Shown piece by piece: positions 39,183 through 58,719 of a DNA stretch of 64,000 nucleotides. The stretch's first letter is position 1. Each line of letters opens with the position of its first letter. A model generated the notes under the pieces. It made no database searches and was not told the DNA's origin. It saw only the letters and a list, made by a program, of their open reading frames with translations. The DNA is from Epinephelus fuscoguttatus (lineage: Eukaryota; Chordata; Actinopteri; Perciformes; Serranidae). Location: NCBI RefSeq assembly GCF_011397635.1, contig NC_064771.1, forward strand, positions 16,493,379 through 16,557,378, in the 5' to 3' direction. Made by a program: the position numbers and the translations under genes.

Positions 39183-42100
39183 TCACATCCGGGAACCCCT
39201 TTCCTGAAGGATCTGCAGAGACCAACAAAAAACAAAAAGACAGAGTTAACAGAAACACATAGTACCACATGCTCTAAAAGTGATTACATTTACATGCACA
39301 TGCACAAAATATTCTGGTTTTTGCCCTTATTCAAAAAGACAACATTCTTACTGAGCTGTTTACATTTCTACAGAAAACTAGTAGTCCAGTAATACTAGTG
39401 TTTACATGCAACTGTGCATACTCTGTTTCATGTACCCTAACACGTTGTTTATCGTGTCAAAACATGGACAAGTAGAACAGCTGGACCTGCTTGAGTAGTT
39501 ATGTCAGAGAAGGATTTTTCACAGGTTTCGGGGGGCAGACTCAACCGTGCGCACGCAGCCTCCCTCTTTCATTCCTTAGGTCCCGATCACACAAAAAGTG
39601 TTTTAGCAGCTTTAGGCACCTTTTTTTTTTTTTTTTTTAATATAAATGGGAATTAAGCTTTTTGCTCGCGGTTTTTGCATTGCGATGCACCTAATGTTTC
39701 TGCGCTCTAGGTGCCTGGCGTTTTTGCTGGAGCAGTCTGAACTCCTCAAGTTGAAAAAACTGCAACTCAAAGCAGAAAAACACCCCAAATGATCTTGTTT
39801 TTCAGCACATTTTTCTCATGTCCAATCGGATGATTTGAGAGGCAGGTCTTCTGTGGTAGTCACAACAACAAGTTTACAGTTGGTAAACAATGGAGGAGAA
39901 ACCAGTGGTAGCTAGTGGATACCCAGAGCTATAAGGCCGGATGATAGACAGCTGGTTGTCAAAATGCCATGGCCATCATGGAGGCAAAACTCCTGGACCA
40001 ACTGGTGGTATTCTCCATTATCCACCCTCTTTTCTAGGGTCTCATGTGCCCACAGAGATCTCCGTTTCCTTGTGCCCAAAAAACTATTTGAGTTGAGCCC
40101 ATAGTTGCTGGGCAACAATAAAAAGGCATAGCAAGCATTTTTTTTTCACTAGTGGCATTTTTTTAAAAAGCTGAATGCCACTAGTGGAAAAAACGCTTGT
40201 TGCATCTTTTTATTTTAGCTTAATTCTCATTAAAAACAATTACAAAAAGGCGCCTCTAGCTGCTAAAACACTTTCTGCATAAACAATCTTTCTAAAAAAA
40301 AAAAAAAAAAAAAAAAAAAGTTGGTTTTGACATATTCGCTCATATCAAAAGCCTGTTGAGATCCAACTTTTTCATATTTTCTAAGGTAGGTGTGTTTCTC
40401 CTTCCAACCAGAAATGTGGGTTCTCTTTTGGGCATGCATCTCTACCCTACAGCCCTGCAAACTGTTGGCGAGCTGGTTTGTGGACAAAAGATCCATGACA
40501 ACGCACAGAGCTGGCTATAAACAGGCAAGATGCCGTGTGTCGCAAACTGCAAGCATATTCCGAATGTGCTGTACACATGCCCAAAGAATGCTCCTAAAAC
40601 CAGATTAATACCAGCATATCCCACATCTTAATCGGAACAAGCTACATTCAGAATAAGATCTAATTCAGTATATCCAAAAGGAATGTGCTGTTTACACGAA
40701 CACTATCACTTTCAGAGTCACAGTGAAATATTAATGTGCATGTAAATGTACCCATTTAGTATCAGACTCTGTAGATTCCCCTGTATTTCCATGCATAAAT
40801 TCACTTCATCAGGTATTTTTTATTCTTTATTCCTGTTACAGTGCATACTTTGCCAGCCAGGAGCACTCATACATTTACTGTACGTGCTGGCTCAATCAAA
40901 CACACTGAAAGGAGGCAGAGAAAAGGGAAATGCTTGAACAAATGAGGAAAATGAAGCGTTGTGCTAAAGACTATGCAGTGCTGGGTTGTGAAGCCAATTA
41001 TGGGTGAGCTCAAAGCAGAGAAGCTTGTCAGCTGGGATCAACCTTGGTACTGGAAAGACATGCTGCTGAAGCTAACCTCAGCACCCTGAATGATTCTGAA
41101 CGGCAGAAGACATGAAGGCTCAGGGTCTAAGGGATCATTTATGCTCAATGTTAGCTACAGAAAAAGAGACAGATGGAGCCTTCTCTCAGTACAATGGGTT
41201 TATTTTGTCTGTATTTGTGCATGTTTTCTTATAGCTTACGAAGATGACGAAGAAATTTAAATAATGGCTAAACAGAATAAAGTGGTAATATAGGGAAAAG
41301 AAATCTTTGTCCACATGTTGGGATGTATGTAATAGCCTTACAGACCAACATGGTCTAAAACTCTGCCTCCATTTAAAGGTAATATAGTATGACCTCCTCC
41401 ACGTCACCTCGTTTGTTGTTGTGTGAAATGTTTGACTCTGCCTTCTAGTGCCATCTATAGGCTGTATCTATGCCATCATAAAAGACGCACGGATGTAGGA
41501 GGGCAGTGCTGTTTACAATGTTCGAAACAAATTTATTTTCACACATAAAGGGAGTATAAATGAGCCTTAACAGCGTCCCGTCTTCCCCGGGACATTAGCA
41601 AACGTGTAGGATGAACGGAGATCTAACCCAGGATGCCTTCTGGATGAAAGGAAGAAGTAAACTCGTGATGCTACACTGTAAACAACAAATCGGTGTTGAA
41701 AACAGCGAGTGGAGCGTTAGCTAATGTTAGCTGTTAGGGACTAACAGCTCACAGAAGCTGTATTATGTTACATTATGATGCATTCAAGCTCTATTTAGTA
41801 AAACTCAGTATTAGTAAATTATGTCAACGTCATGATGCGTTCAAATGTAATCTTGTAAAATTTAGTTTAGTTTCTCTTAGTTCTTTTTTTTAATATTCAC
41901 AATTCTGTTATTTGTTTAAATTGCAGATTTCCCTGTTTCCCTGGCACAAAGGAGGGAATAAACAACAATAAAAGCAAAATAAATGACAGCCAAATTGTCA
42001 TTTTAAACATTGGTAGTGGCCCAGAATTTCACAGTCGGTAAATTCCTCACATTAACTGCAGCAGCAATAAATTTAATTGACCTTTTAATGATTCTTTGTA

Positions 42101-44521: not shown

Positions 44522-47500
44522 ACCTTGGCCTTCTCACTGGGCTCACTGTTTGTCCCGTATGATTGATTGTGCAGCTCCTTGGAGACTACACACAGGAACT
44601 CGGCTTGGTCTTCGTTTCCGTAGTTATAAGAGGAGCCTATGCTGACCAGCTAGAGACACGAGAGCAGAGCACAGAGGGAGAATTAGTGTTAGACTGCTGA
44701 AATACAGGCAAAAACTGGGCAACTAACAGTGGGAAAACAGTGGTAGGGAGACGTTAAAGTAACGTAAAAGAGGTTGACAACCATTCACGGAGCACACGGA
44801 GGGTCTACAGGGTTCATGCAACTCAAATTTAAGGCTCTATATATTATTTTGGACAAAACAGGACAAATGTCACTGATTAGACATAGCTCTAATCATACAG
44901 ACTAAGTATGGTCTGTGTAACCATGACTTTCAGGTTTGTTTTCGAATTAATTATCTCCCATATTTGCTTATATTTAATAAAAAATATAATATGTGATACA
45001 GTGAGGACGACACATAAAGGTCCACACTGAGATCTAAAATCCAGAATGTCCTGTTAGCACTATTACATGAGACCACTAGACCAACCCACTTCAAGAAGAG
45101 ATAGAATTACAGACTTAAGGGTATATAGAAATGTGAGTTTTAATCCAATACATTTTTAAAATGCAACGCAAACAGTGTTATCAGGACCTGCAATCCAAAA
45201 TAAAACATTCATGAATATCATAGGGCAAACAGAAAACAAAGTCACCAAGGTAATTACACAGAAATAAAATAATTGTTGGTCCACAAAAATAAGGCAATCA
45301 TTAATAAAAGAAATTGCACAAAGACGCCAAAGACAAAAAAATAAAACCAGCAGAGAGTTACTGAAAAGTGCAGGGGTTCGACCACAGGAAGCAAACATGC
45401 TGGTTGAAGAAAAATCAATGGGGAGCGGTGGATTTGACTTGATAGGACCAGGCTTGTTTCAAGTTAATATTTGGTAACAAATTAATGCCATCAAGTGTTT
45501 TAAACTACAGTATCTTCAACAAAGCAAATAAAGGAGGAAATGACAAAGTACCTGAAACACCAGGTCAGTGTTTTACGTAAGATTTGAATGTTGGTAATAC
45601 CTTGACAAAGACAACGTGTGCAGGATTTTCTCCAGTGTCTTAAAAGCAATGTATATTAAAAGGTATACTATGCAGGATTTTCCTTTAAACAAATGTACAG
45701 ACTCGTACAGAAGTTATTCCTCTGCTCTCTGCCTGGATTTTCCTATTTTCTTCTTATTTTCTGTATTTGGGACATTATTGGGCGTGTACCTGCACAGTGC
45801 TCAGGTGAGGTAGGAGCTTCATACAAAGGTACCAACCAGGTGCCAGGCTGTGAGCAGCAGGCATTCAAGCGACAGAGCACAGAAAAAACGCAAATAAAGC
45901 GTGCCGAAACGTGAAACCAGGGAATCCAGGGTTGACTATACGTTGACTTTTGCTGTTGAGTGCCTTTTCAACCATTATCCGACAATCCTGCATAGTATAC
46001 TTTCAAGATCAATACTATCAGTACTAGATACTATGAGCTGCATTCTACAGTCTGCTTTCTATGATTTTCGTTAAGTTTGTCAACTCCTATGGAATGCTAT
46101 TATAAGTCATTATCAAATAAAAAAATAAATCAATATGCCTCTTAAAAAAAAGATGGCTATTAAATAAATAAGACATTAAATATATTTTTAAGAAAAGTTC
46201 TTTTTAATAAATAAATGTGGAATTATGAAATAAAAGTCCCCAGAAATAAATAAAAAATATTTATTTATCAAACTAAATGTATTAATTTATATAATAAAAG
46301 TTATTTATATATTTAATGCCTCATTTATGCCTATGAAATAAATAAATATGGTTGTTAAATAAAGCCTGAAAATCCTGAAAAAGTACCCCTTTGGAAAATA
46401 TAATTTACACTAAAAAAAAAACAACAACAACAAAAAAAAACTCTTTATCTATTTAATTAAAATGATTATTTTTTTATATGTGCATTTAAATGTATTTATA
46501 TATTTAGTGGCTTATTTATTTATTCATTGGCATATTTTTTTAATTTAATACTGACTTAAATAGCATTCCTTACAACTCTTGCTTTAGGTGCATGTCTTAC
46601 CAATCTACCACAAGCACTGACAGGGAACCGAGTGCATAACCCAAATTCAACCACGTCAAAACATCAGTGAAGCTACTGATTGTAACAGCAAGCAGCTTTT
46701 AGCTTTGAGCACTGAATGTGTCAGTCAGTAAAAGAACTGGTATGAGAAAATCCCACACATAGTATCTTTAATACAATAAGCATGGCACTTTGTAATTTTC
46801 CTGTTCCAAGTCATGTCAGTTTGCATACAAGACATAAAACAACACAAGAGGATAAGTAAAGGGACGAGTCTGGTGAGATCTTTAGATAAACAAACCTCAT
46901 GCACACCTTGAAAAACATGAGAGAAAACAGAGCGATCCCTGTTCCTGAATAACTGCTTTTACTGCTGAATGTTAAGTGTGTGTACACTGCAGGCTACATG
47001 TATGCCGTCTGTACCCAGGTGTGCATGTTCAGACACGCATCGCCTCATTAGCCACTGCTGCCGGAGACTTGTTGTTGTTAAGCAATCTCTCTCACATTAG
47101 GCATCAAAGCAGCAAAAAAGACCAAATTATCTCAGCTAACTACCATGGATTCCACTTGTCCTGCCGCTAAAGACTCAACACCCACCAAATCCTAACTTTC
47201 TGGGTGAAATACACTTCAACAAATTGTCTATATTATGGAGTCTTAAAGACAGCAGTAGGTCATTAAAGCTCATCTACCCAAAAGACTCTCCTGGGCTAAC
47301 GACCGAGCTTTAGGCTTTGCATACAGAGTGTTTCTAGGAGTTTCCCCATCTGACCTGTGTAAGGAGATTAGAGAGGTTTCAGCTCTAATGGGAGATCCAG
47401 TGATCCCTCATCTCAGAGAGATTCATTCACACATAATACACACACCAACACCCAAACGTGTGGTTTCACATTAGAAATATTAGCTTTTTGGCAGCTCCAG

Positions 47501-48276
47501 CTGAACACAAACTCTCATGTAAACTTGGGACTGTTCATTCTTAAAGGGACAGTTCACCCCAAAATCAAAACTACATATTTTTCCCGCAACTGTAGTGCTA
47601 TCTATTAATTTAGATTATTTGATGCGAGTTGCTGAGTGTTGGAAATATCAGCCATAGATGCGGCTGCCTTCTCGTGGTGTGTGGGTCAGGGCTTTTCAAA
47701 ACCTGCATCAACCCAACCTGTTAAGAGCAAATCTGTTGCACTCGACCCACAAACACAAGCATTTATCAATTACTTGAAGCCAACCCAAAAACCTTGGCTG
47801 AAAGTTTCTGGTAATGACCGTTGCTAGTAACAACTTACTTGCTGTTGTCTATATTGTATGTCATTTACTGTAAATATCACAATATAAAATGTGTTTCCTC
47901 TGTTCAAAAATACAAATACAGGAAGACAGCAAGTTCTCATCCATCTATTAAGTGGTTTCCTCTTCAGTATGATCTCGAGCGCACAGCTGAAATCTTGTGT
48001 GTTTTTATTACATGAGTGCACAGCTGATAGGTACAGCTGTTTGCTTACATGACATAAGAGAAGTGCATATTTAACGGATTCAGTGTTGATAGAGAGACGC
48101 TTACTTGCTTGCTGTCCAGGGACAGTGTAAGACCTACAGAGGGAAATATTTTTACCAAACATTATGACCAGAGAGATTTACTGATGTCGGACTTTAACAG
48201 ATTTTTCTGGTCAAAACATGGATAACGGACAGCAGCACCGAAGATAAAGCTGCTTGCTGGGAGGGAGGGAGGGAGG

Positions 48277-48321
<45 letters not shown>

Positions 48322-50463
48322 GAAGGTGGACTATTGCAGTATTTCTGTAAGTTGTTATTAACTTACTCAGAACACTGCTTTGTCATTTAATGACCCGTCC
48401 ACCCGAAAAAAACCCGCAATATTTTCAAACAAGCCTACCCAAACTGTCCAACCCACTGTGGGTCCACAGGTTGTGGGTTGACATGCGCAGCACTGCTTTC
48501 TCTCATATACAGCGTAACTAGATGACTTATGGTGTTCAAAAAGCCAAAAAGTTGAGTCTTTCAAAAAAAATTTTTTAAGGTGCTTTGAGCACCACAAGCT
48601 GCCATCTAGTTCCGTTATTTTCAAGAGGAGGCAGACACCTCTACAGACGGTATCTCCAACACTCAGCAACTCACACCAAAACAATCTAGACTGATAAACA
48701 GCACCACAGGTGAGATGTGAGAGGTGAATCTATTTAACTTACAAGGTAGAGTACCTGCTGGGAACACAAAACAACATTTCACCTCTAAGCAACCAGTACT
48801 ATGTTACAGCACAACCCCCAGAAACAGCCAAGTGGCTATATCAAAGCAGAACACAGAAAGCTGTTGACAGGCTTATAAACTGTGAATGCATTATGAATAA
48901 AAAATAGCATAATAAAACAAAATCACAGACAAGAAAAAAAAGGTGTCATGTTCTCTTAGCCTCACTGGTGAGCAAGCAGTACAAATGAACACTGAAAAGA
49001 ATCAACCAAAAAAGAGACCAACAGCTATGTGTCTACTTGGAACAACAATGGCCAACGGGGTGTGTATGGACAACATAGGGACCATGCAGTGACCAGCCCG
49101 TGGACAGAAATTTGTTAGACACACCTCTCCGCTGTTGTTTGGCAAAGCAGACTCCTCTCCCTTCACCTCCCTTGACACAATCAGCAGAAACTCTGACTGG
49201 TGGGCCCGCCCGTAACCTATACTGACAAGCTGCAACAACCAATGAGAGCACAGAAGGGATGCCCGGATCATGTATGCGGACATTGAGAAAGATGTGATTT
49301 GCTGTTTGGCTTTGTAGCCATTTCCAATATTGAGGATTGGTCTTTCTGGGTCAATGTGAGCATAGCGAGGTGGGTGAAGCACATGAAAGGAGAATTGCTG
49401 CCGTGACCCTGCGGGAAGAGGTTTACCTGTTCAAACTTCCAGCCGTCAGACATGGTAGACACCATCTGTGTCAGTTCCTCCTCCTGGCACTGCAGCACCC
49501 GGTACACATGCTTCACTGGAACCTGAGAGGAGGACGAGCACATGAGAGAAATGCGATAGAAAGGGAGAGATAACACAAAATGAATGGAACAGGAGTGTCA
49601 CATTTATGGAGAAATCTATTTAAAGAGAACTTTGTGTACCTGTGATGTTTTACAGTCGCGTTCCCTGATCTTATCCTTGATGAGTTTTATTAATGATGTG
49701 ATGTTGTAGAATTCGGCCTCTTCTAGCACACCTACAACGGTGAAAAAGAAAGTTTTAGACAGAGGGTGAATACACGTGATCCATCCACAACAAATATTCA
49801 ACTTTGTTACCATTTTGTTTCTTGTGCTACAGACAACTGTATTTAGATTTGGAAAACGTTTCATTACATATTCCAGGGACTTACCTTCCTCTGCCAAGTC
49901 CCTGTTGAGCACCAGTTTGCCATGCCTCAAGTAGTTAAGCACTGGCCCAAAGTATGTGGGGTCTCTGTCTATGAGATAGGCACCAGTTTCATCCTGAAAA
50001 GCAGAAAAGGAGGAGGTTGAGATTAGTATACTGTTTTAATCTGACTGTATTCACAGAGTTCTCAATTTGAAGAATCAGTCCAACATTTAGGAACTGTGTT
50101 TGTTTCTGCTCAATCCTACACTTAGGCTACATTCAGACAGCAAAAGCTGCCCAAATCTGATATTTTGGCTGGATCCAAATGTCCACCCTGTGGACTTGCG
50201 GACTGAGCCCTGAATTCATGTGAGTTTTACATCAATCTAGAATAATATTCATCACAATTCTGAACTGAGTGTCTTGCTGTGAGAGTCTTGTGGAGATCTG
50301 CGGACAGAGATGTCGTTAAAAACAGCCCTTGGCATCCTGATTTTTGATGAAATCTGTTTCAATAAAGCCAAACATGTCACGATCCCACCACTCATGGCTC
50401 TGACTCTGCATCCACACACACCTCCGTACAGAAGTAGCAATCATTGCTCCACAAAAAGCCATG

Positions 50464-57362: not shown

Positions 57363-58719
57363 TGTTAAAACTGGCAGATGGACAAACAGAGAGAAGCCTG
57401 CTTCTGGAGCATTGAGGCTATTCAGGCAGATGAGTGACTTCATCCCGAGCTCTCAAGTTGTCAGCAGCACCTCACCCCACTTGGCAATGACTTATGTGCT
57501 CATTAGGGCAGCCTCACCACCAGCACAGAGGCTGATTACTGCAGAGCAAACAGAGCCAAGTAACAGACTAACCTCAAGAGAAGGAGGGGGAAAAAACACA
57601 AATTGATCGAGCAATAAAGTCTCATATGTGTGCATCATTTGATGAGTTAATTATAGCACTAAGGCTTGTAGACATTACAGTCACTAGATGGGCCAGAAAA
57701 GAACTATAGATAGGCAGTGTATCAATAACAACAGCGTATAAAATTGACATTTGTTTGGAGTTATATCATGCAACAAAGCATTTAAAGTTACAACGAAATG
57801 ATGCAATTTTCTGTTTGTCTGTTAAAGCTCAGTGAAATAACCCACCTCAAGTTTAGATCAAATACTACAGTATATGTATCGTCACACACAATATCGGGTT
57901 ACACTATCTGCAGCGAGGTCTAACGTAGAGTATGTAACAGTAGTTTTTGTCAATACTGGAGAAGAATAAGGTTGCTGTTACTATTTGACATTTGACACCA
58001 CACACCTAGAGGAGTGCAACGCAATGCAACGGCCTCAGATGGGCAAAGTTTCCAACTACTATAGCGACTTGATTTTTTTTCCACTGGAAAAGCTATGAAA
58101 TAACAGTTAAAACCACATGTTACTGATGTTACAACCAGCACATTAATATAATAACAGCACTTGACAACTTCTCTTATTAAAGACGCGTATCGAGCCAGCT
58201 ACACACACAAGCTAGCAGCGAGATCGTATGTCATGTGGTGACTGTCGGAATCTAGCTAGCTTAGCGTGCTAATGCTAGCTAGCCACAAAAATTCGAGTTA
58301 GCACCAAGTATGAATAAACACTGATTTTTAAAATGCTGGGGACATGTTTTGGCAAGTTGGTACACGCAGTTACGAGCCAGCCTAATTGTGAAACAATATA
58401 GTAAGCAAATATAAACGAATGTGGTGGAAAATAAAATGAAGTTAACCAACTGCGCTCCCAACTACAGCGCTAACTAGCTGACTAGCTTAGCATTTACCTT
58501 GTCGGAGTCGAGCTCGGGGTCAGCTTGGCTCAGTCTGTACAGAAATGATTTGGGATCCCGACACAGCGTCTGTCTTGTTGTTAAAAAATACGTCCCGCCG
58601 ACGTTTAGCCGGATCCATTTCGATGCCCCGACACCGGCTGAAATGTTTCTCTCCGCCGGAGAATGGGCCAAACATCTCCGGTGAAGGGAGCTGCTTGTCT
58701 CGGAGCTGTTCTCTGCCAT
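39183..58719 (-). CDS. kctd5: BTB/POZ protein KCTD5, complete, 6 standard exons plus alternatives
   Basis: Substrate adaptor that binds CUL3 through its BTB domain and forms a pentamer; human KCTD5 targets include G-protein beta-gamma. Standard exons on the minus strand: 58498-58719, 49885-49993, 49640-49731, 49427-49522, 44524-44649 and 39183-39212, giving 224 codons plus stop. I chose the ATG at 58719 ([10 protein letters not shown]) because it matches the human start MAEN. The upstream in-frame GTG at 58806 is not a normal start. BTB motifs seen: [39 protein letters not shown] and [20 protein letters not shown]. The C-terminal part has [19 protein letters not shown] and ends ILQERGSRM, as in human KCTD5. 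KCTD2 shares that tail; the neighbour pdpk1 (16p13.3) supports kctd5. Intron 1 is 8.5 kb. Confidence 0.92.
39588..40280. mobile_element. Non-autonomous DNA transposon with inverted ends, in kctd5 intron 5
   Basis: AAAGTGTTTTAGCAGCTTTA at about 39595-39614 pairs with TAGCTGCTAAAACACTTTCT at 40258-40277. Inner inverted words (GGGAATTAAGCTTTT and AGCTTAATTCTC) and A/T runs lie just inside. No coding capacity for a transposase. Exact ends are uncertain because no target-site duplication was found. Confidence 0.65.
42864..42908 (-). CDS. kctd5: Candidate alternative terminal exon of kctd5 (acidic tail)
   Basis: On the minus strand, a pyrimidine-rich stretch ending GATGCTCAG precedes 14 codons and TAG that read [14 protein letters not shown]. 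Entry is in phase 0, which fits both versions of exon 5 (each ends in phase 0). The compact acidic sequence looks coding, but 45 bases is short. It lies 1.6 kb downstream of standard exon 5 and upstream of the ILQERGSRM exon, so it would act as an alternative 3' end. I cannot recall a vertebrate KCTD5 with this tail. Confidence 0.45.
   Translation of the reverse strand, partial: SEDEETDYEMNDSD
44461..44519. repeat. (CA)n microsatellite touching a kctd5 5' splice site
   Basis: Uninterrupted CA dinucleotides over 59 bases. On the kctd5 strand the intron begins GTAAG and runs directly into (TG)n, so the tract starts five bases from the exon 44524-44649 boundary. Confidence 0.98.
45656..46006. 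mobile_element. Short MITE with terminal inverted repeats in kctd5 intron 4
   Basis: TTAAAAGGTATACTATGCAG (continuing GAT) at the left is the near reverse complement of ATCCTGCATAGTATACTTTC at the right. The unit is about 350 bases and matches a common fish element. No transposase. Confidence 0.75.
46007..47540 (-). other. kctd5 intron 4, low-complexity AT-rich stretch
   Basis: The first half (to about 46560) is dominated by AAATAAATA and TTTATTTA words, including ACAACAACAACAAAAAAAAA near 46420. The rest is unremarkable intronic sequence with no recognised exon. Confidence 0.6.
47543..48715. mobile_element. Inverted-repeat element, arms about 130 bases and 1 kb apart, in kctd5 intron 4
   Basis: The left arm has CACCCCAAAATCAAAACTAC, CTGTAGTGCTATCTATTAAT and GAGTTGCTGAGTGTTGGA. 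The right arm (about 48590-48715) is its reverse complement, with TCCAACACTCAGCAACTCAC, AATCTAGACTGATAAACAGC and ACCACAAGCTGCCATCTAGT. The middle is unrelated sequence plus a GGGA/GA tract. Recognised as a widespread fish foldback-type element, probably carrying a later insertion. Confidence 0.65.
48259..48314. repeat. (GGGA)n(GA)n compound microsatellite
   Basis: Several GGGA units run directly into about 18 GA dinucleotides, followed by AAAAGG. A purine-only tract on this strand, so it could form triplex-type structures. Confidence 0.95.
49125..49229 (-). CDS. kctd5: Candidate duplicated, alternative exon 5 of kctd5 (exon 5b)
   Basis: On the minus strand, the acceptor TTGGTTGTTGCAG is followed by 35 open codons and a GTGTGT donor. 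They read [20 protein letters not shown], then [15 protein letters not shown]. This aligns with standard exon 5 (44524-44649), which reads [20 protein letters not shown], then VVSKEL. Both copies start and end in phase 0 (105 and 126 bases). Either could follow exon 4, which ends KFEQ only 198 bases upstream. Retention of the hydrophobic pattern without stops suggests selection as coding sequence. Confidence 0.72.
50469..50497. repeat. Poly(A) run
   Basis: An uninterrupted run of about 29 A in kctd5 intron 1. It may be the tail of an unrecognised retroposon, but the sequence before it shows no SINE promoter boxes. Confidence 0.9.
53497..54381. mobile_element. Degenerate hAT-like MITE in kctd5 intron 1
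   Basis: GGTGGGAATCTCCGGGCACC then TCACGATTCGATTATGATTC at the left, and ATCGCGATGAATCTAAGAAT then ACCCCACCCCTAGTAG at the right, give weak inverted ends. The GGGAATC...ACGATTCGAT words are typical of a frequent fish element. The boundaries are approximate. Confidence 0.55.
57327..57359. repeat. (CA)n microsatellite
   Basis: About 16 CA dinucleotides in kctd5 intron 1. Confidence 0.95.

Follow-up and report, generated by a model that had tools for sequence, protein, structure and literature searches.

A putative tandem duplicate of exon 5 in the kctd5 gene of Epinephelus fuscoguttatus and its possible use as an alternative exon

Mutually exclusive exons that have arisen by tandem duplication are known in vertebrates, and 236 such events are described for human (PMC9741552). 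KCTD5 is an adaptor through which free G-beta-gamma and other proteins are recruited by the Cul3 ubiquitin ligase (PMC11790235, PMC13361646). Each of its C-terminal domains binds G-beta-gamma, and the complex has a 5:5 stoichiometry (PMC13361646). Its fly relative, Insomniac (Inc), acts in sleep and at synapses (PMC11790235, PMC5469494). For KCTD2, KCTD5 and KCTD17, a hot spot in the C-terminal region is reported, and when its residues were swapped in KCTD5, the binding seemed only to be lessened (PMC9976452). For the C-terminal isoforms of KCTD17, one of which binds trichoplein, a change of partner is suggested, and a single Kctd5 transcript was cloned from mouse brain (PMC5469494). In the kctd5 gene of Epinephelus fuscoguttatus analyzed here, a genuine, old duplicate of exon 5 is present in the intron that follows exon 4; it shows signs of constraint on its protein sequence, and its splice sites look usable. 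As judged from its sequence, this copy is most likely a functional alternative exon.

The gene is located on the minus strand of a 64,000-nt stretch of DNA (the window; all positions below refer to it and to its minus strand), which corresponds to the region around 16.54 Mb of contig C20 in the searched genome of 1.05 Gb and 26 contigs. The coding part of exon 1 starts with the ATG and is located at 58498-58719. Exon 2 (49885-49993), exon 3 (49640-49731) and exon 4 (49427-49522, 96 nt) are located by tblastn matches, splice-site scores and frame, and the donor of exon 4 is common to both choices of the exon that follows. Standard exon 5 (44524-44649, 126 nt, phase 0 at both ends) is located by a KCTD5 query, by PDB chains and by its donor, GCCAAG/gtaagt; it is 91% identical to the query. 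The coding part of the last exon (39183-39212), located by a tblastn match and frame, encodes ILQERGSRM and the stop. The spliced canonical product consists of 224 residues. It contains a BTB_2 domain (PF02214, E = 6.1e-24 in a Pfam search), and in a PDB sequence search its C-terminal 83 residues are matched to KCTD5 chains (E = 4.3e-49), which sets exon 5 to residues 184-225 of a 234-residue KCTD5 chain. The gene is thus identified as KCTD5 of the KCTD2/5/17 clade from the presence of both BTB_2 and the C-terminal domain of this clade.

The candidate alternative exon (49125-49229, 105 nt) is assigned from homology, splice-site scores and constraint. It is located 197 nt downstream of exon 4 and 4,475 nt upstream of exon 5, contains no stop, is in phase 0 at both ends and has 35 codons, as compared with 42 in exon 5. 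The earlier note had placed a 105-base stop-free stretch at 49229..49125, and these coordinates and the phase 0/0 are exact. Its borders are ttgttgcag/CTTGTC at the acceptor and GGAGAG/gtgtgt at the donor. When the splice sites are scored with a vertebrate weight matrix, the candidate acceptor scores 3.89, which is the 97.0th percentile of AG on the minus strand of the window. The acceptors of the other kctd5 exons score 10.74, 6.64, 8.01, 3.84 (exon 5) and 6.93, so that the candidate acceptor is comparable to that of exon 5, and those of the other constitutive exons are higher (6.6 to 10.7). The candidate donor scores 4.69, the 99.3rd percentile of minus-strand GT, and is mid-range for a gene in which the other donors score 4.18, 8.08, 0.73, 3.54 and 8.08 (exon 5). 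The GT donor that had been proposed is thus within the range of the gene, and the acceptor that had been called good is ordinary and at the low end of that range. By score, both sites look usable. The exon had also been described as kept open. It indeed contains no stop, but this openness is weak evidence by itself, because 142 codons are open in this frame, which extends past the exon into both introns.

The translation of the candidate aligns with that of exon 5, as had been claimed, with an E value of 3.8e-4 in a tblastn search of the 64-kb window; the reverse search, with the KCTD5 core as a query, detects the candidate with an E value of 0.006. The alignment begins at the first residue of the candidate, LVSIG is identical, and four residues (SSYN) of exon 5 are absent from the candidate. 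In the best-matching part, a core of 22 codons, 14 of 22 residues are identical, whereas the last 13 codons, aligned without gaps, agree with exon 5 at one position. This similarity was compared with that of a control set of 2,408 open, phase-0 candidates bounded by AG and GT, taken from both strands of the window and of three paralogue stretches (L008-L010), about 93 kb, with one candidate kept per acceptor, the longest one in phase within 60-180 nt. Against exon 5, the candidate scores 59, as does one longer candidate in which it is included. The 12 higher-scoring rows are the true exons 5 of three paralogues or pieces thereof, and the top unrelated candidate scores 38. The 35 candidate residues have no match at E <= 10 among PDB sequences. 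The Pfam hits at E <= 1 are BTB models and SAM_LFY, with no model of the C-terminal domain. The SAM_LFY hit, obtained with a fragment of exon 4 plus the candidate at a best E value of 0.0044, is below threshold (17.4 bits, with a cut-off of 25.2) and was treated as noise.

When the whole genome was searched with the candidate, by protein and by DNA with flanks, only the locus in the window was detected. These searches are blunt and may miss diverged copies elsewhere: at E <= 10 the protein search reports the single candidate and not exon 5, and very common words are skipped. A pseudo-exon derived from a repeat is rejected, because the DNA search gives no second place. Three loci of the kctd2/5/17 type, with matches to exons 4 and 5, are located on contig C20 at 13.16, 38.97 and 16.54 Mb. 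A genome search with exons 2-3 gives 14 matches, six of them at these three loci and eight weaker ones on other contigs, which presumably represent other KCTD genes. The paralogues are presumably kctd17-like (L008/L010, at 13.16 Mb) and kctd2-like (L009, at 38.97 Mb), names assigned from human sequences. Exons 4 and 5 are 124 nt apart at the kctd2-like locus and 2.2 kb apart at the kctd17-like locus. The candidate query detects no copy in the three stretches (9.0-9.9 kb, E <= 3) from these loci. The matches there are the own exon 5 of each gene and three places at chance level (E values of 0.24 to 1.5), none of which is in the intron separating exons 4 and 5 or downstream of exon 5. Collections of viral and prokaryote contigs give 3 and 110 pattern matches, respectively, and none is a relative.

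It is scarcely credible that the resemblance to exon 5 arose by chance. The resemblance is confined to 22 codons, and the similarity at the DNA level is slight (P = 0.032), so that the homology shows as protein. However, the match begins exactly at the acceptor and in the right phase, and a Gumbel fit to the control scores below 58, with the higher rows removed before fitting, gives a probability of 6.6e-7 per candidate, or 0.0016 expected over the 2,408 candidates. The two exons are neighbours, homologous and both in phase 0/0, and their 35 and 42 codons are within the 20 residues given as the length rule for tandem duplicated exons (PMC5740500). These features support an old tandem duplication of exon 5. 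The duplication is considered to be old, as the earlier note had stated, because the intron flanks have lost nearly all similarity; the exon DNA itself is barely alike. The last 40 nt upstream of both exons share TCCC(T)TCTGTGCTCT (P = 0.022 and 0.012 in two tests), but no similarity is detected further upstream (P = 0.36). Downstream, P is 0.43 for the first 40 nt and 0.99 for the first 150 nt, where the exon 5 side is a GT repeat; when this repeat is skipped, P is 0.85, 0.34 and 0.03 for 100, 200 and 300 nt, respectively. Neutral sequence is thus taken as essentially erased, with the protein core still present. A relic of an old duplication, now neither spliced nor translated and open by chance, would also resemble exon 5, and the 142-codon open frame and the weak DNA similarity are compatible with such a relic. 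In the core, the differences at codon positions 1, 2 and 3 are 6, 4 and 13, a silent change is present in 8 of the 14 codons for identical residues, and the NG86 method gives a dN of 0.26 and a dS of 2.9, which is saturated. Silent differences alone do not prove constraint on the copy, because exon 5 itself is constrained, and therefore a neutral copy was simulated beside a parent that changes only silently. The joint pattern of identity, silent differences and an open frame is reproduced for the core alone (22 codons, 4,000 runs) in at most 1.3% of the runs at equal rates, in at most 5.7% when the silent rate of the parent is doubled, and in up to 19% when it is fourfold, a rate regarded as unrealistic. 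For the whole exon with the best local segment chosen (1,500 runs, equal or doubled rates), it is reproduced in at most 4.5% without indels, a value reached at the doubled rate, and in at most 0.33% with small indels. At 0.8 or more substitutions per site, a distance assumed from the flanks, the observed score is retained in 3.7% and 4.1% of the indel-free runs and in none of the 1,500 runs of either of two settings with indels. The near-complete divergence of the flanks and the presence of both splice sites also argue against a relic, which is considered unlikely. The substitution pattern instead shows signs of protein-level selection on the candidate exon.

A coding exon at this position is not necessarily used instead of exon 5. 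The predicted products are 224 residues for the canonical form, 217 with the candidate only, 259 with both exons and 182 with neither, and all of these frames are open. Exclusion of one exon by the other is enforced neither by frame, because the exons are 105 and 126 nt long and the joint frame is open, nor by steric block, because 4,475 nt separate them; both types of enforcement are thus ruled out. The donors gtaaac, gtgtgt and gtaagt are all U2-like by eye, so that there is no mismatch of U2 and U12 sites either. Enforcement by frame, short spacing or U2/U12 incompatibility is not a required feature of mutually exclusive exons. Frame and spacing would also allow inclusion of both exons or of neither. 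Thus the candidate may be a cassette exon that is added to exon 5, giving 35 more residues and a second hairpin, or may be in mixed use, and the lengths in multiples of three, the long intron and the open double-inclusion frame all permit this. However, the exon starts inside a folded domain, between WKFEQ and LVSIG of a probable strand, so that the fold would probably be disturbed if the strand and hairpin were doubled, and the homologous layout of the two exons suggests replacement. Similar reasoning on disturbance of the fold by such exons is published (PMC5740500). Use as a cassette is, by these considerations, rather improbable. The candidate would act as an alternative last exon if transcripts read through its donor, add 40 residues up to the stop at 49004-49002 and are polyadenylated in the intron. 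The frame does continue to this stop, 120 nt downstream, and the intron contains ATTAAA at 48391 and AATAAA at 48009, but a high-scoring donor ends the stretch, and these nearest signals are about 730 nt and 1.1 kb away, respectively. An alternative last exon is therefore very unlikely. The homology, the common phase, the splice signals and the pattern fitting protein-level selection together suggest that the candidate is probably a functional alternative exon that arose by old tandem duplication and mostly replaces exon 5.

If the candidate exon replaces exon 5 in this manner, a transcript of some cell type would be spliced from exon 4 to the candidate and from there to an exon further downstream, in most cases bypassing exon 5. 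Exon 5 probably encodes a strand (WKFEQ-LVSIG), an exposed loop, a returning strand and a tail; the loop is described as exposed and the tail as being without resolved structure (PMC11790235). The presumed strand residues are conserved between the candidate and exon 5, and the loop and tail are diverged. The predicted isoform would keep the BTB domain, which provides the pentamer and Cul3 binding, and two C-terminal strands, LVSIG and EFLLIVSRE. Its connecting loop would be four residues shorter and less acidic (YGRAHQS in the candidate), and its flexible tail would be different. It should therefore bind Cul3 and pentamerise, possibly in mixture with the standard form. The changed loop and tail should alter the choice of substrates of the Cul3 ligase, for example free G-beta-gamma, or the strength of their capture, giving other substrates or weaker recruitment. 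The C-terminus of Inc is not required for multimers or Cul3 binding, but is required for activity; activity is lowered when 25 residues are removed from its end, and R135 and the tail are proposed as substrate binders (PMC11790235). The triple alanine mutant of the N-Y-G loop of Inc, in contrast, rescues sleep as well as the wild type (PMC11790235). Because of these results, the change in the tail is a better supported route to altered targets than the change in the loop. The earlier proposal of two C-terminal modules is retained in that the LVSIG strand is kept and the loop and tail are swapped; for the loop as a contact with targets, the Inc loop mutant is contrary evidence. The predicted isoform, if produced, would be a natural separation-of-function variant, in which the substrate-facing part is changed with pentamer and Cul3 binding intact, and would help to find which surfaces of KCTD5 pick targets.

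Several motifs near the two exons may bear on the choice between them. TGCATG, presumably an RBFOX-type motif, is located at 49083-49088, 37 nt downstream of the candidate donor, and at 44815-44820, 171 nt upstream of the exon 5 acceptor. By the RBFOX rules, these positions would promote use of the candidate and act against that of exon 5. A third copy is located mid-intron at 46903. The minus strand of the window contains 33 such motifs, which gives chance probabilities of about 5% for a copy within 100 nt and about 10% for one within 200 nt, and the placement is taken as a regulatory lead only. The donor of exon 5 leads directly into a GT repeat (44523-44461, 63 nt including the donor). GT repeats are bound by TDP-43 and CELF proteins, and this repeat could weaken or regulate exon 5. 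The tract TCCC(T)TCTGTGCTCT is present about 25 nt upstream of both acceptors (49229 and 44649), exon 5 of the kctd17-like gene has a similar tccttctgtgc, and this tract is perhaps an old splicing element. Another possible alternative exon is located after exon 5 at 42908-42842; it is open to a stop with which it ends, and its acceptor, with two TGCATG upstream of it, is weak (-2.4), whereas its donor (ctg/gtgagc) is strong. It is conceivable, but doubtful, that fish kctd5 has a switch in excitable cells, possibly set by RBFOX-type factors, that swaps the substrate-facing hairpin loop and tail. The gene would then encode two ligases that differ in their targets, or pentamers of both forms; free G-beta-gamma, for instance, might be captured by one ligase and not by the other.

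Tandem exon duplication itself is well known, and the kctd5 pair would be an apparently unreported example of it. No report of a duplicate pair for kctd5 exon 5 was found in the literature on splicing of KCTD5, KCTD17 and KCTD2 and on vertebrate exon duplication, as far as it was covered, and KCTD genes are not named, by term counts, in the main texts of PMC9741552, PMC5740500 and PMC9013439. In the ASCOT study, a novel unannotated mouse Kctd5 exon was tested by RT-PCR (PMC6952364). Like the fish candidate, it is additional to the standard exons of this gene, but its forward primer, as given there, is read as lying within exon 5, which places the mouse exon downstream of exon 5, unlike the fish candidate. 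The mouse exon may therefore correspond to 42908-42842 rather than to 49229-49125. The alternative C-termini of KCTD17 (KCTD17.2 and KCTD17.3) are a precedent in that they are produced by C-terminal splicing in the same clade, as proposed for the kctd5 candidate, but that case, as far as it is described in PMC5469494, concerns variant C-terminal residues without mention of a duplicated exon 5. Compared with the human events as presented in PMC9741552, the kctd5 pair differs in that it is alignable over a 22-residue core only, its lengths differ by 7 codons, and its exclusive use is a candidate property only. The pair is like these events in that the two coding exons are adjacent, homologous and in the same phase, the region that would be swapped is homologous, and it is C-terminal, a location that is enriched among them.
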